Origin: a virus
Reading direction: 5' to 3' (one strand)
DNA length: 28,553 nucleotides
IMG/VR virus record: IMGVR_UViG_3300042563_001252
Coordinates: 1 to 28,553 of that record
The position numbers and the translations under genes are program-made. Numbering within the stretch: the stretch's first letter is position 1; each line of letters opens with the position of its first letter. Under the pieces are notes generated by a model. It searched no databases and was not told where the DNA came from. It saw only the letters and a program-made list of their open reading frames with translations. Positions 2,576 through 28,455 of the stretch are shown here, piece by piece.

Positions 2576-3484
2576 ATGAAAAAGCTATTAGCTACACTAG
2601 CCATAGCCTTGTCTTTTGCGGCAACGGCTCAAGAAAATGTAACCATTTATTACGCATTTAGTCCTGCTGACAGTATTGCCAATTATGGCCGTACCCTGGT
2701 ACAGGAAGCAAATCGTATTCAAACCAAATACAATTTTATGTTTGACACCAAACCCGGAGCAGGCAATGCCATTGCGGCAAACTTTGTAAAGACAAATCCC
2801 AACACTATCTTGTTTACCAGTAGTGCATTCTTTATTCGTCCAGAGTTTTACCCAAACGAAAGTTATGAGGTACGAGACTTTCGTGAGTTTATGCCATTTT
2901 GTACCAGCCCAGTGGCAATCAGTTCAGTCAAGTACAAGTCTTGGGACGAAGTACCCAAAGATCGACCCCTGAACATCGGTGTCAGTGGACTTGGCGTTAC
3001 TACACACTTGATCAGTTTACAGATTGTTGACAAATATCCAAATGCACAAGCAGTGCCTTTCAAAAGCACTTCAGAAGCCTTCATGGGTTTGATCAGTGGA
3101 TCACTGGATTTTAGTCTTGGGTTTCTAACAGATCATCACGCCTGGGCCAGCGACCCAGCTAGAAAAGTACAGACACATGTACTGGGCATCACAGGTGCCA
3201 AACCCATGTTGGGATACAAACCCATAGCCGGAATGGGTTTCAATCCAGTTACTAAATTGTTAAACATTCCACATCATATGGTAGTGCCAGTCACAACACC
3301 AGATGCCAAGTTTAAAGAATGGAGAGCTATACTAACACAAGCAGTACAGGCCAAAACTGTGTTGGACAGTTACAAAGCAGACATGTGTGAGCCACTGGTA
3401 CTAAAAGACAACGAACTAGACTCTTGGTACACCGAGCAACATCAAAAATGGAAAAAGTTAACCACAGGTATTAAACTTAACTAA
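2576..3484 (+). CDS. Tripartite tricarboxylate transporter substrate-binding protein (TctC/Bug family)
   Basis: This 302-residue protein is a periplasmic binding protein of the TctC/Bug family, which captures carboxylates or similar small molecules for a TctAB-type permease. A signal peptide is clear: Lys-Lys, a hydrophobic core and a cleavage site after A16-T17-A18. The family pattern 'KPGAGNAIAANFV' (residues about 60-72) corresponds to the usual 'PGAGGNIGA' loop. No TctA or TctB lies in the window, so the phage protein would have to work with a host permease. A strong Shine-Dalgarno (GAGGAAA) precedes the ATG and a terminator follows directly, so it is a one-gene late unit. A second member of the family lies at 24030. 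Confidence 0.85.
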   Translation: MKKLLATLAIALSFAATAQENVTIYYAFSPADSIANYGRTLVQEANRIQTKYNFMFDTKPGAGNAIAANFVKTNPNTILFTSSAFFIRPEFYPNESYEVRDFREFMPFCTSPVAISSVKYKSWDEVPKDRPLNIGVSGLGVTTHLISLQIVDKYPNAQAVPFKSTSEAFMGLISGSLDFSLGFLTDHHAWASDPARKVQTHVLGITGAKPMLGYKPIAGMGFNPVTKLLNIPHHMVVPVTTPDAKFKEWRAILTQAVQAKTVLDSYKADMCEPLVLKDNELDSWYTEQHQKWKKLTTGIKLN

Positions 3485-9668: not shown

Positions 9669-11237
9669 ATGGCAAAAATTGACGAACAACAACTAGTAAA
9701 GACGCCCCATAAAAAATCGTCTTACACAGAACAGCAGATCTTAGAATTTGCTCGCTGTGCAGATCCTGTGGACGGACCACAGTATTTTATGGACAACTAC
9801 TTCTACATACAACACCCCGTCAAAGGTAAGATGTTGTATCACCCTTTTGAATATCAAAAGCGTCTTATTGATACTTACCACAATTATAGATTCAGTATAT
9901 CATTGATGCCCAGACAAACAGGCAAATCAACCAGTGCCGCCGGCTACTTGCTATGGTATGCTATGTTTGTTCCCGACTCAACAATTCTTATTGCGGCTCA
10001 CAAGTATACAGGAGCACAAGAAATTATGCAACGAGTTCGGTATGCCTATGAACTATGCCCGGATCATATTCGCGCAGGTTGTACCAGTTACAACAAAGGC
10101 AGTTTAGAGTTTGAAAACGGCAGTCGTATTGTGAGCCAAACCACAACTGAAACAACAGGTCGTGGTATGAGTATTACCTTGCTGTACTGCGATGAGTTTG
10201 CATTTGTTCGACCCACTATTGCCAAAGAGTTTTGGACCAGTATTTCACCTACACTGAGCACAGGTGGTAAGGCCATTATCACCAGCACTCCCAATTCAGA
10301 TGAAGACCAGTTTGCACTGATTTGGAAAGGTGCCAACAAGTGCGTTGACGAATTTGGCAATCAAACTGAATTGGGTATAAACGGATTTAGAGGCTTCCAG
10401 GCGGCCTGGCAAGAACATCCAGATCGTGATGATAAATGGAAAACAGAAGAGATTGGTCGCATTGGTGAAGAACGGTTCCGTCGTGAGCATGGTTGCGAAT
10501 TTTTGATCTACGATGAAACGCTAATTAACAGTACCACCCTAATTGAAATGGCAGGCATAGATCCAATGGAACGACAGGGTCAAGTTCGTTGGTATAAAAA
10601 ACCCACACGAGGACATCAGTATTGTGTAGGACTAGATCCCAGCTTGGGTACTGGCGGCGACTATGCGGCACTAGAGATAATTGAGTTGCCAACAATGATG
10701 CAGGTGGGCGAATGGCAACACAATAAGACGCCAATACAACGGCAAATTGTCATCATGAAAGAAATTTGCGATTATCTATATGAAATCACCGGATCAGATA
10801 CAGACATATACTACAGTGTAGAAAACAACACAATCGGTGAAGCATCATTGATTGCCATTGCTGAAATAGGCGAAGAGAACATACACGGAACATTCTTAAC
10901 AGAGTCCAAAAAAGTAGGCAATGTACGAACTTATCGCAGAGGATTCAATACCACACACAAGAGTAAACTAACAGCCTGTGCCAAGTTGAAGAGCCTGATT
11001 GAAACCCGGCGTATGCACATAGCCAGCAAAAACTTAATTAGTGAACTAAAGACTTTTGTAGCAACAGGCAATACATTCAAGGCCAAAATTGGCGAAACTG
11101 ATGATTTGGTAATGAGCTTGATCCTGGTACTACGCATGGTACAAATGCTACAGAGCTTTGATGCTGAATTAGATCAGCATCTCAGGGACGGTTTAGATGA
11201 GTTTATTGAGCCCATGCCCTTTATAATGACCATGTGA
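9669..11237 (+). CDS. 17: Large terminase subunit, T4 gp17-like
   Basis: This is the packaging ATPase and headful nuclease. The ATPase domain shows Walker A R82-Q-T-G-K-S-T, Walker B 'LLYCDEF' with D175-E176, and 'STPNS' (about residue 205) as the coupling motif. The RNase H-like nuclease domain has D322 in 'VGLDPSLGTGGDY', E384 in 'SVENN' and the C-terminal 'GETDDLVMS'. At 522 residues it is shorter than T4 gp17 (610), lacking mainly terminal extensions. No strong Shine-Dalgarno precedes the ATG. The last bases overlap the next gene. Confidence 0.95.
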   Translation: MAKIDEQQLVKTPHKKSSYTEQQILEFARCADPVDGPQYFMDNYFYIQHPVKGKMLYHPFEYQKRLIDTYHNYRFSISLMPRQTGKSTSAAGYLLWYAMFVPDSTILIAAHKYTGAQEIMQRVRYAYELCPDHIRAGCTSYNKGSLEFENGSRIVSQTTTETTGRGMSITLLYCDEFAFVRPTIAKEFWTSISPTLSTGGKAIITSTPNSDEDQFALIWKGANKCVDEFGNQTELGINGFRGFQAAWQEHPDRDDKWKTEEIGRIGEERFRREHGCEFLIYDETLINSTTLIEMAGIDPMERQGQVRWYKKPTRGHQYCVGLDPSLGTGGDYAALEIIELPTMMQVGEWQHNKTPIQRQIVIMKEICDYLYEITGSDTDIYYSVENNTIGEASLIAIAEIGEENIHGTFLTESKKVGNVRTYRRGFNTTHKSKLTACAKLKSLIETRRMHIASKNLISELKTFVATGNTFKAKIGETDDLVMSLILVLRMVQMLQSFDAELDQHLRDGLDEFIEPMPFIMTM

Positions 11238-19870: not shown

Positions 19871-21253
19871 ATGAAGATTTTTGAAGTTATTGCCACAGTA
19901 TCAGAAGGCCGCGGGATTTATGCTCGTAGTCCCACAGACCCTGCATTTACTGCTGTGCCCAACAACACATTTGGCGCAGAAGTAGGCGCACCTTATCAAT
20001 TTGCCGGCACACAAAACTATCCACAACGGGGACAGTTTGCAGATACCGCAGAATTACAAGCCAATGTTGCACATGTAGACAAACAAGTACAACAACAAAG
20101 CGGTCGACCTATTACCTGGGCAAACCGCCAGGGCCCACGCCATCGTGGTTTTGGTCTAGCACAATTTGTTGGCAATGATGGCAAGCCTGTTTACTTTGGC
20201 AAGTACTTTGAAGAAATTCTTCCCAGTATGATGCACAAGTGGGACAATGATGAAGTGCCCGGCCTGCGTCCAGAACTAAAAGCCAGTAAAAAAGCCCGTG
20301 TCGGCTTCAAGCCACAAGACATTCTTGGAGCAGTTGACACAGCCACCAACGGTGCTGAGTTGTTGAAACACATCAACAGTGTGACCACACTACAGCAAAA
20401 CATCAAAGACGGCATCAACATGATGACTCAGAAACGGTTGCCTGTGTTTGCCGGAGAAGCCGCAAACCTGGAAGCAGTGCGTGACAACCTAGGTGAAGTG
20501 CTACAAAGCATTGCCTTAACATATGGCATGGTTGGCGGCGAAGCTGACCAGGCTCGTAAAAAGATTCTTAACAATGCGCCCTGGCAGAAACTTGCTGTGC
20601 ATTTCCCGCAGGGTAAAACATTTGGCCTGGTGGACTTCTATCTTCGTGCAGGCAACTTCAGTCTTGGCGTCAGTAGTAAAGGAGCCAAAGGAGCTCCGGC
20701 CAGTGTGCGTAATCTGCTGGAAGGTATTACCAATGCCAAGAAAGTTGGACAAGATCTAGAAGCTGAGTTTCCCATTGCGGCCAACCTGGTTAAGAAAATT
20801 GCTGAAGCCAACATGCAAGACGGGCCGTTGTTGTTGGCACAGGACTACAAATTTATCACTGTAGATCAAGCCGCGGATGTCAAACGCATGATCAAAGAAC
20901 ACACCACAGAAAATCCTCCGGCCTGGACTCAACCCTGGACTGAAGCATTTAAAATGAAATCGGCCGCAGGATGGAATTATGGATACTGGGTGCTGAGTGC
21001 CATTGCAGGTCGAGTTGCACAGCATGTCAACAGCACACCCGACTTCAGCGCAGGATGTGTGCAATTTTTAAATTATGCCAGCATGATGCAACTATACACA
21101 CAGGCCAAAGCAGTAGGTGATGATGTGCAGATTACCGAATTCAAGCCAGTGTACCCTCCAAACTTTGAAGGCTCAATAGCATTGGTAGCAGGCAAGAGTT
21201 ACTATGCAAGCGGTATCAACCAGAAATATGTTTTCGACTTCAGGCCTGCTTGA
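19871..21253 (+). CDS. Hypothetical protein, late-expressed
   Basis: I do not recognise this 460-residue protein. Residues about 235-285 ('FPQGKTFGLVDFYLRAGNFS', then 'SLGVSSKG') show an acidic residue followed by S-x-K after a strand, faintly like a nuclease core, but not enough to name one. The rest is helical. The N-terminus MKIFEVIATVSEG resembles that of the gene at 8317. It is a single late unit: a late promoter touches its start and a sigma70 promoter overlaps its stop. Confidence 0.7.
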   Translation: MKIFEVIATVSEGRGIYARSPTDPAFTAVPNNTFGAEVGAPYQFAGTQNYPQRGQFADTAELQANVAHVDKQVQQQSGRPITWANRQGPRHRGFGLAQFVGNDGKPVYFGKYFEEILPSMMHKWDNDEVPGLRPELKASKKARVGFKPQDILGAVDTATNGAELLKHINSVTTLQQNIKDGINMMTQKRLPVFAGEAANLEAVRDNLGEVLQSIALTYGMVGGEADQARKKILNNAPWQKLAVHFPQGKTFGLVDFYLRAGNFSLGVSSKGAKGAPASVRNLLEGITNAKKVGQDLEAEFPIAANLVKKIAEANMQDGPLLLAQDYKFITVDQAADVKRMIKEHTTENPPAWTQPWTEAFKMKSAAGWNYGYWVLSAIAGRVAQHVNSTPDFSAGCVQFLNYASMMQLYTQAKAVGDDVQITEFKPVYPPNFEGSIALVAGKSYYASGINQKYVFDFRPA

Positions 21254-21278
21254 CAACTAAAGACTCTTAGTATATAAT
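21250..21278 (+). promoter_or_regulatory. Consensus sigma70 promoter before tRNA-Met
   Basis: TTGACA (21250-21255), exactly 17 bp, then TATAAT (21273-21278): a perfect match to the consensus. It overlaps the stop codon of the preceding gene and ends 9 bp before the tRNA. No terminator is seen before 24926, so it may drive the whole unit of two tRNAs and four genes. Confidence 0.9.
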
Positions 21279-22900: not shown

Positions 22901-24033
22901 TGGAACAGTTTGGATTTTATCGAGTTGGCGATGCGAAGTTCTTCAGCAAGTTAGAAGCCGCACACGAGCACGAGCGTGTAGGCTTGCCACTCTCTTGGGA
23001 TTTCAACGAGGCAGTATACAGCAGTTACGATTGGAAACAGGAACCTGTAGAAACATTAGAAGAATTATACAGACAGCGAGCACAGCAAATCAGAGACAAG
23101 TACGATTACCTTGTACTTTGGTTTAGTGGCGGTGCTGATAGCAATAACATACTGAATTCGTTTATCAACAACGATATCAAACTAGACGAAGTTGCCAGTT
23201 ATGTAAACTACGAAGCAACCAAGGATCGTTATAACTTCCTTAATGGTGAAATTTATAATGTGGCCACGGTTAAAGTAGAGCAAGCAAGAGTTCGACAACC
23301 TACATTACGGCACACAGTGATAGATCTAGCCCAACAAACACTGGATCATTTTACTGCCAAAGAAACCAAGTTTGATTGGATATATCATATGAATGGATAT
23401 CTCAATCCCAACAATGCGGCCAAGCAGGATATTAAACTGCGTGAAGCCCATTGGCGTGACATGATTGCGGCAGGCAAGCGTGTGTGTTTTATACACGGCA
23501 TAGACAAACCGCGTATCAATGAAGTCAAAGGCAATTACTATTTCCGTTTTGTGGACATGGTAGATACTGCTGTCAGTGGGCAAGTGCAGATGTTGAATCG
23601 ACCCTGGGACTTTGATGAAATGTTTTATTGGAGTCCAGAGGCGGCCAAGATTGTGATCAAACAAAGCCATGTTATCAAACGCTACATGACCGTGGCCACA
23701 CCCACAAGCCCGTACATAACAGAAGACACCAACAATATTGTAAGCAAGACCGTTGATGGCAAACGATTCTTTCTAAGTGTTGACGGCATCAGTTATTTGA
23801 TCTATCCTGGCTGGTATCCGGTGCCCTATCAGTCAAAGGCACCCAGTTTGTTCTTTTCACCTAGAGATGAATGGTTTTTTAATTTACCAGATTCAGATCC
23901 TGCTAAGTATTCTTGGAGAACAGGATTAGAACATATTTGGCGCATCATGCCCACCAAATGGAAAGAAGATCCGCAAGACATTAGACGCGGATTTAAAAAG
24001 ATGCCGAGCAAGGTTTATAATTTAGGAACATGA
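22900..24033 (+). CDS. PP-loop ATP pyrophosphatase family protein, copy 2
   Basis: A 377-residue paralogue of the preceding protein. It begins 'FGFYRVGDAKFFSKLEAA', has the PP-loop S76-G-G-A-D-S81 and the shared 'GIDKPRINEVKGNYYFRFVD'. The two have diverged well beyond recent duplication, which suggests a heterodimer or two different substrates. Its stop overlaps the ATG of the second TctC-like gene (ATGA). Confidence 0.75.
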   Translation: MEQFGFYRVGDAKFFSKLEAAHEHERVGLPLSWDFNEAVYSSYDWKQEPVETLEELYRQRAQQIRDKYDYLVLWFSGGADSNNILNSFINNDIKLDEVASYVNYEATKDRYNFLNGEIYNVATVKVEQARVRQPTLRHTVIDLAQQTLDHFTAKETKFDWIYHMNGYLNPNNAAKQDIKLREAHWRDMIAAGKRVCFIHGIDKPRINEVKGNYYFRFVDMVDTAVSGQVQMLNRPWDFDEMFYWSPEAAKIVIKQSHVIKRYMTVATPTSPYITEDTNNIVSKTVDGKRFFLSVDGISYLIYPGWYPVPYQSKAPSLFFSPRDEWFFNLPDSDPAKYSWRTGLEHIWRIMPTKWKEDPQDIRRGFKKMPSKVYNLGT

Positions 24034-24926
24034 AACAGTTAATTTTATCTTTGGTATTGTTATTTGGTACAGCACAAGCAGAAACAATTCGGATAGTTGT
24101 GCCATTTGCACCTGGTGGAGCCGCTGATCAAGCCGCTCGCGTACTAGAACGAGCTTTAACTACACATACACAGAACACGTATGTAATAGAGTACCGTGCA
24201 GGAGCAGGTGGCGCCATTGGTGCCAATTATGTAGCAAAAAGCCGTGGATCTGACACTATTTTGTTAATTCACAGCCTGGCCGTGGTGGTAAACAGTCTAC
24301 AGGCCGATAGTATGTACAGTTTAACAGAGTTTGAGCCTGTTGCCACATTGGGCACAGTGCAATTGGCATTGATCACAAATCCAAAGAGCGCAGTTAATAC
24401 CATGCCAAAGTTGCTGGCCACACGAGATCCTGTGTTCTTTGGTAGCAGTGGCAACGGTGCGGCCACACATATTGCTGGAGAACTATTTAGAATCAATACT
24501 CTTGTTGACATGACTCATGTACCTTATCGAGGTGAAGCGGCCGCACTAACAGACATACTCAGCAATAATATTACTGTATTGTTTACGAGTGTTGGGGTGG
24601 CAAAGGATCAACCTGTGACAGTACTAGCAGTTACAGGTATACGGCGCAATCGTGAATTTTCGCAAGTACCTACATTGCAAGAACAAGGCATACGCGGTTT
24701 TGAAACTAGCCCAAATTGGTTAGTGTTACTGGCCAACCCAACAGCAGACCAACACACACTGGCAGTAATTAGAGCCGCACTTGGCACCGCACTTAGGGAA
24801 GATCCAGAACTATTTGGTCGAGTGGGGGTTGACATAGATCGACAGCAGTTGTATAATACACAACAGTTTATGAATTCTGAACGACAACGAGTTCAAAAGA
24901 TTTTATCCCGAATTCAAATAAAGTAG
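24030..24926 (+). CDS. Tripartite tricarboxylate transporter substrate-binding protein (TctC/Bug family), second copy
   Basis: A 298-residue binding protein closer to the cellular family than the first copy. The signal peptide ends at A15-Q16-A17. The mature protein begins with 'IRIVVPFAPGGAADQAAR' and 'EYRAGAGGAIGANYVA', the two hallmark ligand loops. Later, 'THIAGELFR' and 'HVPYRGEAAALTDILS' complete the pattern. It would be exported and feed a host permease. It is coupled to the PP-loop genes by ATGA. A perfect promoter follows its stop at once. Confidence 0.9.
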   Translation: MKQLILSLVLLFGTAQAETIRIVVPFAPGGAADQAARVLERALTTHTQNTYVIEYRAGAGGAIGANYVAKSRGSDTILLIHSLAVVVNSLQADSMYSLTEFEPVATLGTVQLALITNPKSAVNTMPKLLATRDPVFFGSSGNGAATHIAGELFRINTLVDMTHVPYRGEAAALTDILSNNITVLFTSVGVAKDQPVTVLAVTGIRRNREFSQVPTLQEQGIRGFETSPNWLVLLANPTADQHTLAVIRAALGTALREDPELFGRVGVDIDRQQLYNTQQFMNSERQRVQKILSRIQIK

Positions 24927-24955
24927 TTGACACGAAGAGATAAATAAAGTATAAT
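24927..24955 (+). promoter_or_regulatory. Perfect consensus sigma70 promoter with embedded late octamer
   Basis: TTGACA (24927-24932), 17 bp, TATAAT (24950-24955). A late octamer GATAAATA (24939-24946) lies in the spacer. The -10 box ends 7 bp before an ATG (24963), so the transcript should begin at or beside that codon. Confidence 0.9.
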
Positions 24956-24962
24956 AGAGACT

Positions 24963-25097
24963 ATGATGCAAACATTATCCTTACATTCACCAAAACAAAT
25001 GCCCCAGTTAGGCCTAACAGCCTATTGGTGCCTGTTTGCGAAGGTGAGTAATGATCGCACACCAGAGATTCGCAGGGTCCAGGGAGACACCGTGTAA
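24963..25097 (+). CDS. Possible 44-residue leader peptide (or part of a small RNA)
   Basis: A 44-codon frame begins MMQTLSLHSPKQMPQ and ends in TAA. No known domain. It is placed exactly at the predicted start of the strongest promoter in the window, so it would be translated leaderless, if at all. The transcript, about 200 nt to the terminator at 25160, could instead act as a small RNA. I give moderate weight because length alone does not establish coding. Confidence 0.4.
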   Translation: MMQTLSLHSPKQMPQLGLTAYWCLFAKVSNDRTPEIRRVQGDTV

Positions 25098-25130
25098 TTA
25101 CATAGTAACTACAACAAACCCCAGGACCCT
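25074..25130 (+). promoter_or_regulatory. Possible antiterminator stem
   Basis: AGGGTCC (25074-25080) is perfectly complementary to GGACCCT (25124-25130), and GG/CC pairs extend it after an A-A mismatch. Its 3' arm shares CCCT with the 5' arm of the terminator at 25127, so the two stems exclude each other. The 5' arm lies inside the 44-codon frame, as in attenuators. Confidence 0.5.
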
Positions 25131-25160
25131 AGGCTTAAAACACCTAGGGTTTTTTGTTTT
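25127..25160 (+). terminator. Rho-independent terminator before the 54-residue gene
   Basis: CCCTAGG and CCTAGGG form a 7-bp stem around a 9-nt loop, followed by TTTTTTGTTTT. It lies 11 bp before the next gene's ATG, which fits an attenuator or the end of a small RNA. Confidence 0.85.
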
Positions 25161-25170
25161 AAGGAATAGA

Positions 25171-25335
25171 ATGACAGATAGAAAAGAAAAACTTAGTCCC
25201 AGAGAACAGGCGTATGTGCATGAGCATACTTTAACCAAAGAACAACTACATGAGTTGATTCGAGCAAAGTTAGAGCGTGCCGAGCGTATGCGTATGCAAC
25301 CTAGGATCGAAGAACGCAAACAAATCTATACTTAA
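25171..25335 (+). CDS. Small basic hypothetical protein
   Basis: Fifty-four residues, highly charged and helical ('LTKEQLHELIRAKLERAERM'). I do not recognise it. The start at 25171 is chosen for its Shine-Dalgarno AAGGAA (25161-25166); an ATG 120 bases further upstream in frame would run through the terminator. It may be a small regulatory or nucleic-acid-binding protein, but no motif shows it. Confidence 0.7.
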   Translation: MTDRKEKLSPREQAYVHEHTLTKEQLHELIRAKLERAERMRMQPRIEERKQIYT

Positions 25336-25582
25336 CAGTATATGTAGTGTGGGGAAACGAGGTCCCTGGCGCACTCTAAACATGCCTAAACGGGCGGACA
25401 GGACACATGGAGTTCCATTTGTGGAACAATAGACTCCTGGGTAGGGTATCAACTCTATCATATCCCTTGGCGACAAGGGGTATTCAAAAACACATCGGAT
25501 GAAAAATGCGGCAAGTAGAAAGATAAACTACTGATGCGGGCTCACTGACCGGGCCGACAAGGACCAGTGTGTTTTTGAATAC
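25336..25582 (+). ncRNA. Structured non-coding stretch leading into tRNA-Ser
   Basis: No gene fits here; several strong hairpins do. GTTCCA/TGGAAC around TTTG (25412-25427) sits inside GGAGT/ACTCC. ATATCCCTTG/CAAGGGGTAT (25460-25483) is a 10-bp stem on a GCGA tetraloop. A 15-bp perfect inverted repeat, GTATTCAAAAACACA (25480-25494) and TGTGTTTTTGAATAC (25568-25582), encloses 73 nt with an inner AGTAG/CTACT stem. The last arm ends on the base before tRNA-Ser. I match it to no RNA family. Confidence 0.5.
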
Positions 25583-25672
25583 GGAAGTGTGGCTGAGCTT
25601 GGCTTAAGGCAACTGTCTTGAAAACAGACGATCTGAAAAGGTCCGTGGGTTCGAATCCTACCACTTCCGCCA
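25583..25672 (+). tRNA. tRNA-Ser(UGA)
   Basis: A 90-nt class II cloverleaf with encoded CCA. GGAAGTG pairs with CACTTCC, the anticodon stem ACTGT/ACAGA has one imperfect end pair and loop CTTGAAA (anticodon TGA), followed by a long variable arm. The 3' end is 2 nt from the convergent desaturase stop. Confidence 0.93.
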
Positions 25673-25674
25673 GA

Positions 25675-26493
25675 CTAAAAAGATCTTTTAAATTTTTGTT
25701 GAGTAATTGTGCCCCATCCTAGCTTTTCAAAAGCCCAGATGCAGTATTTACCAACATCAACTTGCCACCAGTGGTACCCAATTTTCCAATTCCCTGGATC
25801 TGTACTGTGGTTGTTGTGCCACGGCTCACCATCTAAATAAATGTAGGCCCAAATTGGTCTATTGCAAGTGCTTTTATTAACAGGGTCTGCATGACCTATG
25901 CTGTTAATTAATCGTTGTTTAAAACTGTATCCACCCAATACAGCAATCCAAAAACTCAACAAAGATAAACTAGGATCGATTATACACATTGCAATCCATA
26001 ACGCAATGTTTATGTGATAGTGGTAATCAAAGAAAAACAAGTGATCTTTATCTTTACCTAAATCTTTGATATATTCTGGACTATACGAAACTTTAGTTTG
26101 AAGTCTAGGATAAAATATTATTTTCCATCTAGGCATGTAATATGGACTATGTGGATCGTTGGGAGTATCTTCTAGATGGTGATGTTTTCTATGTGTCATT
26201 ACCCATGATAACGAAGTAGTAAACAATCCAATGGTATGCATAAACAATCCATATATGTTGAGCCATCTTACTGGTTTCCAGGACTTGTGACTCCAACACC
26301 GGTGTACAAACAAAGAAACGTGTAAGCCACCTGTCGCCACAATTGCATACAAAAACAGTATGTCAATCCAGTTAAAATGTGTAATGCACCAGTATACGGT
26401 CCATATAGGAAATAACACACATGTTAGTAAAAATACTTCATGGTCTATTTTCCCTCGCTTTTGGTATCTCTTATTAAGTTCTGCAGGTATCAT
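25675..26493 (-). CDS. Membrane fatty-acid desaturase, copy 2, with a degenerate third His box
   Basis: The 272-residue protein belongs to the acyl desaturase family, which inserts double bonds using a di-iron centre. His boxes are H64-RCWS-H69, H101-RKH-H105 and H226-NN-H229-S230. Family members have H-x2-H-H at the third box, so one ligand is replaced by Ser. Hydrophobic segments near 20-40, 45-62, 80-97 and 160-190 fit the membrane topology. It ends 2 nt from the convergent tRNA-Ser and is transcribed with copy 1, whose stop lies just before its start. It is rather AT-rich compared with the virion genes. Confidence 0.85.
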   Translation of the reverse strand: MIPAELNKRYQKRGKIDHEVFLLTCVLFPIWTVYWCITHFNWIDILFLYAIVATGGLHVSLFVHRCWSHKSWKPVRWLNIYGLFMHTIGLFTTSLSWVMTHRKHHHLEDTPNDPHSPYYMPRWKIIFYPRLQTKVSYSPEYIKDLGKDKDHLFFFDYHYHINIALWIAMCIIDPSLSLLSFWIAVLGGYSFKQRLINSIGHADPVNKSTCNRPIWAYIYLDGEPWHNNHSTDPGNWKIGYHWWQVDVGKYCIWAFEKLGWGTITQQKFKRSF

Positions 26494-26495
26494 AA

Positions 26496-27308
26496 TTAAT
26501 CTCTTTCAAATGATCGTATTTTACCCCAACCCAACCAAACACATAATTGTATAAACCTCGCTCCTAGGTCTATCTCATACCATTTGTGCCCGAATCTCCA
26601 ATTTGTGGGGTCAAGATGATGATTTCTATGCCATGGCTCACCGTGTAGGTATAGCCAGGCATAGAAAATACTATTAGTTGATTCTTTAGTAGATGAATCG
26701 TTATGTCCGAGTACATTAAATGATTTATTTTTAAACATGTGAAACCCAATGATACCTAACCATAGTATTAACCAATTTATATTTATAATAGCTAACAATG
26801 TCCATAAGCTGACATTTATAACCCAATAGTAATTAGAAAACCACATGTGTATTGGATCTTTAATTAGGTCTTTAGAATATATTCCAATATCCTTGGGAAA
26901 ATCCATGTCGTATACAGCAGTTGCCACATAAAATTTACCCTTATAGTAAGGGCTGTGTGGATCTTTTTCAGTATCTGAAAATCTATGATGTTTCCGATGA
27001 ACCGCGGCCCATGCTAAAGTCTTGCCAGTACAACCGATATTATGAATAATTAAAGCACATATATTTAACCATTTGTTTGGCACCCAGGCTCGATGACACC
27101 AGGCTCGATGCATAAATGTAGTTGTGTTTATACCAAGAAGGTAAGCAAAAAAAATAAAAATATATAAATGTGTAGGATTAAAATCTATACACATGTTGTA
27201 AATCCATATCAATGTAAAGATTGGAAGTCCGTAAGTTGTTGCCCAAACTAAACCCCATTCAATAGTATGGCGTAATACTTTATTCTTTTTCAATGGTTGT
27301 GGCAGCAT
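26496..27308 (-). CDS. Membrane fatty-acid desaturase, copy 1
   Basis: A 270-residue paralogue with all three His boxes complete: H67-RAWC-H72, H104-RKH-H108 and H227-RNH-H231. It should desaturate acyl chains of host membrane lipids. Lipid desaturases are known cargo of some cyanophages. Four membrane segments are visible (about 16-40, 46-65, 80-100, 160-190). The ATG is 6 nt after a late octamer on the minus strand, so the pair is a late operon running against the RNA genes on both sides. Confidence 0.9.
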   Translation of the reverse strand: MLPQPLKKNKVLRHTIEWGLVWATTYGLPIFTLIWIYNMCIDFNPTHLYIFIFFAYLLGINTTTFMHRAWCHRAWVPNKWLNICALIIHNIGCTGKTLAWAAVHRKHHRFSDTEKDPHSPYYKGKFYVATAVYDMDFPKDIGIYSKDLIKDPIHMWFSNYYWVINVSLWTLLAIININWLILWLGIIGFHMFKNKSFNVLGHNDSSTKESTNSIFYAWLYLHGEPWHRNHHLDPTNWRFGHKWYEIDLGARFIQLCVWLGWGKIRSFERD

Positions 27309-27347: not shown

Positions 27348-27423
27348 GGCAACTTAGCTCAGTAGGTAGAGTAATGGATTGAAAATCCGTGTGTCACTAG
27401 TTCGATTCTAGTAGTTGCTACCA
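27348..27423 (+). tRNA. tRNA-Phe(GAA)
   Basis: A 76-nt cloverleaf with encoded CCA. GGCAACT pairs with AGTTGCT (first pair G-T), the anticodon loop is TTGAAAA and the T-arm ACTAG-TTCGATT-CTAGT. No clear promoter is seen between it and the desaturase start. Confidence 0.92.
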
Positions 27424-27733: not shown

Positions 27734-28137
27734 ATATGCAAACGCATTGGGTTACCAAGCCAGTAGGTGACCTAGTTAGTGATATACCAGTTGACGGACT
27801 GGCACTGCTAGGTCACACGAAAGACGGGCGTATCAGTGATGTAAATCACGAGTTACGGTAGTCACGCTGGAACAACTTGGCCTGTAATGTGATTGATAGA
27901 CAAGTCCGTGGACGGCACGGTAGGGCAGGTTCAAAACTGTTGTTTCTATCACTCATCCCTGTGTGTTTTCATATAGTGAGTATTGCTCGGGTCGTCTATC
28001 GGCGAGGACGCTGCCCTTTCAAGGCGGAAAGAGGGGTTCGATTCCCCTTCCGAGTACCATATGAAAACACATTACCTATTAGTAGCGGCGTACCCGTGGG
28101 GCTAGTAGGAGTCTTGCAAGCTAGTGTGTTTTAATAT
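27734..28137 (+). repeat. Alternating complementary 13-mers (left, right, left, right) around the RNAs
   Basis: Left arms ATATGCAAACGCA (27734-27746) and ATATGAAAACACA (28059-28071) alternate with right arms TGTGTTTTCATAT (27962-27974) and TGTGTTTTAATAT (28125-28137). The pair around tRNA-Glu is perfect over 13 bp; the first pair has one mismatch and one G-T, and the last has one mismatch. Each arm could therefore close a loop on either side: the leader RNA, the tRNA-Glu precursor, or the element at 28072-28124. Confidence 0.75.
27985..28059 (+). tRNA. tRNA-Glu(UUC)
   Basis: A 75-nt cloverleaf with encoded CCA. GCTCGGG pairs with TCCGAGT (two G-T), the anticodon arm CTGCC-CTTTCAA-GGCGG has anticodon TTC, and the T-arm is AGGGG-TTCGATT-CCCCT. 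The final A of CCA is also the first base of the complementary repeat at 28059-28071. Confidence 0.9.
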
Positions 28138-28146
28138 GGTAGTTTT
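28060..28146 (+). ncRNA. tRNA-sized structured element between tRNA-Glu and tRNA-Tyr
   Basis: AAAACACA and TGTGTTTT close a 53-nt interior. In it, CCTATTAG pairs with CTAGTAGG (8 bp, one G-T), with CCC/GGG inside, followed by the palindrome CTTGCAAG. It shares its ends, AAAACACAT and AGTGTGTTTT, with the element before tRNA-Ser at 25480-25582. It has no tRNA T-loop or CCA. Confidence 0.5.
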
Positions 28147-28232
28147 GGAGAACGAGAAGCATTGGCGACTTCAGGTGACTGTAAATCATCCACCTAACGG
28201 TATACGGGGTTCGATTCCCTGGTTCTCCACCA
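28147..28232 (+). tRNA. tRNA-Tyr(GUA)
   Basis: An 86-nt class II cloverleaf with encoded CCA. GGAGAAC pairs with GTTCTCC, the anticodon arm GGTGA-CTGTAAA-TCATC has anticodon GTA, then a variable arm and a CGGGG-TTCGATT-CCCTG T-arm. Confidence 0.92.
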
Positions 28233-28379
28233 AAGCAGAGGATAAGTTACATTATCCAGTATGAGCCACTAAGGTAGGTACCTAATCCTTAGGGCAAGCA
28301 ATAGTACAAAAATGCAATGTAACAGGTGAACGGTGATCCGTTTCATGGGGAGACCTCAAAAATGACCTCCACCAAATTT
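28233..28379 (+). ncRNA. Structured element between tRNA-Tyr and tRNA-Asp
   Basis: GTTACATT (28246-28253) and AATGTAAC (28316-28323) enclose CTAAGG/CCTTAG, whose loop holds the palindrome AGGTACCT. A competing hairpin GGATAA-GTTACA-TTATCC (28240-28257) uses the same left arm. Then AACGG-TGAT-CCGTT and GGAG/CTCC stems follow. A CTCCACCA near 28367 looks like a tRNA end, but no matching acceptor or T-arm exists. Confidence 0.45.
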
Positions 28380-28455
28380 GGTCCTAAAGTGTTCATGGAC
28401 GCACGACGGCTTGTCACGCCGTAAGAGTGGGGATCGTTACCCCCTAGGACCGCCA
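28380..28455 (+). tRNA. tRNA-Asp(GUC)
   Basis: A 76-nt cloverleaf with encoded CCA. GGTCCTA pairs with TAGGACC, and the anticodon arm ACGGC-TTGTCAC-GCCGT has anticodon GTC. The T-loop reads ATCGTTA rather than TTCGAAT, so the first T-loop base, normally ribothymidine, is A. Confidence 0.9.

Follow-up and report, generated by a model that had tools for sequence, protein, structure and literature searches.

The best reading of the element analysed here is that of a ribosome-mediated transcription attenuator which heads a phage tRNA array and senses any missing aminoacyl-tRNA. We regard this reading as likely: the two competing RNA folds, their co-variation, a conserved coding frame, the amino-acid completeness of the leader peptides and the position before tRNA arrays are established by the sequences, while it is inferred, there being no expression or ribosome data, that ribosomes translate the leader in infected cells, that the response has the direction proposed below and that the unit serves to sense a shortage of tRNA. 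The element is carried by a viral contig of 28.5 kb taken from a publicly available collection of metagenomes (hereafter the window, i.e. the whole stretch of 28 553 nt that was analysed). The terminase encoded in the window is 53% identical to that of the giant Pseudomonas phage PA5oct.

All features of the window described below are on the plus strand unless otherwise indicated. The unit begins with a sigma-70-type consensus promoter (TTGACA-17-TATAAT; 24927–24955) which matches the consensus at 12 positions out of 12, as had been predicted; its spacer contains the sequence ATAAATA, which we take to be a T4-type late-promoter-like motif. The ATG of the leader, at 24963, is located 7 nt past the −10 box, a spacing which fits a predicted transcript start on the ATG itself; we infer that transcription begins there or within 1–2 nt. 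The leader (24963–25097; 44 codons; MMQTLSLHSPKQMPQLGLTAYWCLFAKVSNDRTPEIRRVQGDTV) contains each of the 20 amino acids. The 5′ arm of the antiterminator (A arm, AGGGTCC, 25074–25080) lies within the leader frame, and the TAA stop codon (25095–25097) has the two antiterminator arms on either side. The 3′ arm (C arm, GGACCCT, 25124–25130) overlaps the 5′ arm of an intrinsic terminator (25126–25155), the stem of which is formed by ACCCTAGG (25126–25133) and CCTAGGGT (25143–25150, the D arm) and is followed by TTTTTT. The ATG of the next gene (25171) is found 11 bp beyond the T-rich tail of the terminator. The original prediction of a promoter, a 44-codon frame, a competing arm, a terminator and a following gene thus held in every part, positions included. 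The antiterminator and the terminator are mutually exclusive because both require nucleotides 25126–25130, which confirms the proposal that the AGGGTCC/GGACCCT pairing excludes the terminator stem. Two further perfect consensus promoters are present in the window (21250–21278 and 24829–24857), one before a tRNA-Met and one inside a TctC gene. This gene, which codes for a TctC-type substrate-binding protein (Pfam PF03401) in a phage, is accompanied by a second related one recognized by eye (24030–24926 and 2576–3484).

Both folds of the window are stronger than those of shuffled sequences (antiterminator: −21.7 kcal/mol, z = −3.6; terminator: −13.2 kcal/mol, z = −4.2). Some 150 distinct copies of the unit were found in related viral contigs by means of three scans. 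The first, based on an 18-mer of the leader, returned 59 stretches and 58 homologous units (L016 was a chance match, and two of the contigs were previously known); the second was keyed on the terminator alone and the third on the leader plus the first arm. The counts from the last two are lower bounds. After duplicate removal, 150 elements remained. The mean energies are −24.6 kcal/mol for the antiterminator versus −15.1 kcal/mol for the terminator. The occurrence of homologues keeping the terminator without the competing arm would have spoken against attenuation; this is not what was found, as 146 out of 150 distinct elements possess a perfect 7-nt A arm (G-U pairs allowed) and the other four have a single mismatch. 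A chance origin of the competing arm was ruled out with a bacterial control set: the identical terminator pattern gave 18 matches when bacterial and archaeal genomes (257 billion bases in all) were scanned, none of them (0/18) with a perfect arm.

When 83 divergent elements were aligned without regard to structure, the A:C pairing was maintained in 97.8% and the C:D pairing in 100% of the cells, with changes on both sides. At a variable position, the A, C and D arms co-vary in a three-way fashion (G-C-G in 34, A-T-A in 21 and A-T-G in 18 of the 83 elements). The A arm falls in three different reading frames of the leader, depending on the phage, and its conservation is therefore exerted at the RNA level and not at the coding level. 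When RNAalifold was applied to the whole alignment the terminator alone was visible, which is why the antiterminator pairing was counted separately. A single strong copy per contig was found in 14 out of 14 large contigs, one of which has an additional weak match. No clear protector hairpin (I:II of trp), of the kind that would impose termination when the leader goes untranslated, was seen, which counts against the reading; as judged by eye, many members, though not all, could form a short GGTCC/GGACC hairpin. Region 24927–25170 matched no T-box or other Rfam family up to an E-value of 5, and a DNA-similarity search of isolates gave no match for the element.

A frame with a start codon which crosses the A arm and ends before the C arm was present in all of the 77 divergent elements tested (for three of them a short alternative frame was first reported; the full-length frame was used in the count of 144 leaders given below), and it is conserved as a coding frame in homologues. 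The leaders are typically 42–53 codons long, and their stop codon mostly comes 20–28 nt after the point where the A arm begins; a frame of 38–60 codons is absent from one element, L137. In 28 of 144 leaders a full promoter lies immediately ahead of the start codon, and Shine–Dalgarno-like sites are found in most of the others.

The amino acid content of 144 distinct leaders was analysed: the full set of 20 is present in 120 of them, 19 amino acids are present in 22, and the remaining two have 18. The proportion of complete sequences expected is 2–4% overall (2.6% for windows of the same length in phage proteins from the same loci, 3.2% from the pooled composition of the leaders). The possibility that small phage proteins in general are complete was ruled out, since the small proteins encoded just downstream have all 20 amino acids in 2 out of 54 cases. 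Shared ancestry was likewise ruled out, by clustering, by column shuffles and by unrelated leaders. When the leaders were grouped at less than 40% identity, all 20 amino acids were present in 10 of 18 groups and at least 19 in 17 of 18; at less than 35% identity, the values were 9 of 13 and 13 of 13, respectively. Permutation of residues within columns for 65 representatives, a procedure which preserves the make-up of each alignment column, lowered the proportion of complete leaders from 74% to a mean of 14% (maximum 31%; 1000 shuffles). All 20 amino acids are also found in leaders without recognisable shared sequence. Several residues tend to occur exactly once (Cys and Trp each in 88% of the leaders, His in 83% and Tyr in 77%), and the single-copy Cys of 126 of the 144 leaders is spread over at least eight alignment columns. 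Codon choice in the leaders is also more diverse than that obtained by synonymous resampling (z = +1.36; −0.40 for control windows).

Two observations qualify this property. First, 24 of the 144 leaders lack one or two amino acids, which counts against the main reading. Second, and likewise against it, if the A arm is required to be fully free (i.e. stalling at least 4 codons upstream), 19 or 20 amino acids are available in 113 of the 144 leaders and all 20 in just 22. The reason is that the residue which completes the set, in many cases Glu, Ile or Val, coincides with the arm or is close to it. The pangram property, together with the architecture, is a fact of the sequences. Neither it nor the tRNA array as the controlled unit was part of the original prediction.

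The gene which follows the terminator in the window (25171–25335; 54 codons) is the usual follower of the unit: it belongs to a family of small proteins of ∼50–58 residues (HTLT..Q...LI..K.ERA) encoded directly behind the attenuator in most members. Its function is unknown. The protein was considered as a clue to the function of the unit and abandoned, as it yielded nothing more than weak hits to uncharacterised families (one member is weakly similar, E = 4e-5, to PHROG 20536, of unknown function). Between this gene and the first tRNA lies a conserved and probably structured RNA of ∼240 nt (25337–25582 in the window, abutting the tRNA; 3166–3407 in L002; 3136–3382 in L003), with a core AACGAGG..GCACT..AAACATG..GGGCGG..GGATG and co-varying helices; the window copy has no match in Rfam. 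The array itself comprises tRNA-Ser(TGA) as its first member (25583–25672), tRNA-Phe(GAA) (27348–27423) and tRNA-Glu, tRNA-Tyr and tRNA-Asp (27985–28455), and may continue past the end of the contig. Two proteins without a Pfam hit, the histidine boxes of which resemble by eye those of fatty-acid desaturases, are encoded on the minus strand (25675–27308), against the direction of the array.

That the unit heads a tRNA array is shown by its position in other contigs. Representatives of the unit were examined (83 in number); for 71 elements with at least 700 nt of downstream sequence, a tRNA gene on the same strand was found within 1.1 kb in 69, at a median distance of 432 nt. In seven giant contigs (345–383 kb), 21–38 tRNA or tmRNA genes come after the unit versus 0–5 before it, and the tRNAs of seven sampled arrays correspond to 17–20 amino acids.

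Other features were observed in or near such arrays: a GOLLD RNA in one of them (L243, 12283–12747, minus strand) and tmRNA genes in or beside others (L238, L239 and L241). The giant contig L238 also carries a second, unrelated attenuator-like unit (minus strand, 1221–1325 of the reversed locus), located at the head of a side cluster that comprises tRNA-Ser, Glu, Tyr, Asp and Met; its leader of 34 residues is enriched in those five amino acids (16/34, P = 0.003, post hoc). In L093 (minus strand, 10875–10976 of the reversed locus), an unrelated leader of 33 residues with 18 amino acids and a 12-bp competing arm precedes tRNA-His, Tyr, Glu, Ile, Pro and Arg.

The same layout was found at the head of tRNA clusters in two isolated phages. 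In Sinorhizobium phage Phosso, an annotated gene of 54 codons (XYS97753.1; GTG start; 19 amino acids) is located just before the tRNA array; its arm CCGGGTCGGT pairs with ACTGACCCGG, the fold of the antiterminator region has an energy of −35.5 kcal/mol (z = −4.9) and the terminator is strong. In Agrobacterium phage Atu_ph07, a gene of 42 codons (AUZ95228.1; 18 amino acids) just precedes the main tRNA cluster, with an arm (TCCGGTTCCG/CGGAACCGGG) and a terminator; the Atu_ph07 paper mentions neither leader, attenuation nor terminator. The two leaders bear no sequence likeness to that of the window and, taken singly, are not significant pangrams (19/20 and 18/20; P of about 0.17 each), so that the evidence from these phages resides in the common layout and not in amino acid counts. 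No equivalent layout was seen in the stretches scanned of XacN1, Vibrio phage 2.275.O, PA5oct, KVP40, phage G, GAP32, CBB and XaC1, which did not cover all their tRNA genes; its absence, within these stretches, from several isolates rich in tRNA genes counts against the reading. A purpose-written layout detector, applied to 4.17 million bases with both strands counted, returned 217 family matches and four others, two of which are family members with a different arm.

The following mechanism is proposed. The ribosome would translate a leader which holds every amino acid, the rare Cys, Trp, His and Tyr usually as single residues. With all aminoacyl-tRNAs present, it would reach the stop codon between the antiterminator arms and mask the A arm; the C arm would then pair with the 3′ arm of the terminator and transcription would end. 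If an aminoacyl-tRNA is short, the ribosome would stall upstream and leave the A arm free to form the longer and more stable A:C antiterminator, allowing RNA polymerase to read through and transcribe the small gene, then the structured RNA and finally the tRNA genes, the expression of which would resupply the missing tRNA. The antiterminator is on average longer and more stable and is transcribed first, and is therefore the expected default fold. The direction of the response is itself inferred from this geometry. A bolder reading, for and against which we see equally good chances, is that of a universal tRNA-shortage switch: the pangram leader would detect the loss of any aminoacyl-tRNA, brought about for example by a host anticodon nuclease or by host shut-off, and the phage would answer with its own near-complete set of tRNAs.

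The alternative that survives best, though we consider it unlikely, is an attenuator which responds to the overall condition of translation (supply of ribosomes, initiation or a global block) and not to single aminoacyl-tRNAs, the leader merely needing to be translated. In its favour, absence of translation alone would give read-through since the antiterminator is the default fold, and the leaders are provided with directly adjacent promoters (28/144) or, mostly, with Shine–Dalgarno-like sites. However, this explanation accounts neither for the 120 complete leaders out of 144, nor for the single Cys that shifts between columns, nor for the unusually varied codons. A functional or arrest peptide of conserved sequence, through which regulation would take place, is much less plausible. 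It is supported by the strong conservation of DRTPEI and of one Trp in the main family (for DRTPEI, in part a result of its use as the first search key), but leaders retrieved with the terminator key may be entirely devoid of DRTPEI and yet complete (e.g. MNKHYMLSLKPVMLQTASAWSRGFNFNCAITIPENQGSVGDKM). Slightly less probable still is that the short terminated transcript acts in trans as a small RNA of ∼195 nt. The promoter and the terminator are both good, but a small RNA has no need of a conserved coding frame, of a near-invariant competing arm or of a position before a tRNA array. The original prediction had offered a 200-nt small RNA as its alternative; such an RNA is not excluded as a by-product, and alone it leaves the in-frame, amino-acid-complete leader unexplained. 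Finally, hairpins can overlap by chance, but an accidental likeness, or a terminator that simply serves the upstream gene, is all but excluded since it is refuted by conservation and co-variation, amino-acid completeness also being against it.

The tRNA-responsive attenuator remains the preferred reading. The presence of dozens of tRNA genes in phages has long lacked an explanation; if the reading is true, a sensor of any tRNA shortage would tell when the arrays are for use, in a manner which can be tested codon by codon. An amino-acid-complete leader ahead of a terminator also provides a signature with which to search for more such units. tRNA arrays have been described in huge phages (PMC7162821), and phage tRNAs have been described as a counter-defence against tRNA-cleaving host systems (PMC10264068); the unit is proposed to control such arrays. 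The text of the former does not mention a leader or attenuation, and that of the latter mentions neither attenuation, leader peptide, terminator nor promoter. More generally, no earlier description of all-amino-acid leader peptides, or of attenuation together with phage tRNA arrays, was found in the literature searched (subscription papers were mostly outside the search, so that absence is unproven). To our knowledge no earlier attenuator senses all amino acids at once, and the unit would be the first. T-box elements are alike in that they detect uncharged tRNA and are able to work through antitermination; they differ in binding the tRNA directly, without the help of a leader peptide, and the unit has no T-box match in Rfam.

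The closest comparison is with the attenuators of the trp, his and ilvGMEDA type of enteric bacteria (modelled in PMC1183508). Both have a leader peptide with control codons inside, exclusive antiterminator and terminator folds, a stop codon at a position where the finishing ribosome would mask the first arm, and an output which relieves, in the phage unit by inference, the shortage sensed. The membership test that control codons match the supply of the operon is met, most leaders having all 20 amino acids and the sampled arrays serving 17–20. On the main features that can be tested in sequences the unit thus behaves as a ribosome-mediated attenuator, and the predicted attenuation layout is supported and conserved in relatives, with translation and response inferred. 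In known attenuators, the leader repeats the codons of a single amino acid or of a small number of them, and the operon controlled is a biosynthetic one (PMC1183508). The phage unit, by contrast, has a leader with all 20 amino acids, a phage tRNA array as its output and no clear I:II protector hairpin. It would widen the classical attenuation logic (PMC1183508), which deals with a single amino acid or a small number, to the whole set of 20, and its output would be tRNA genes.
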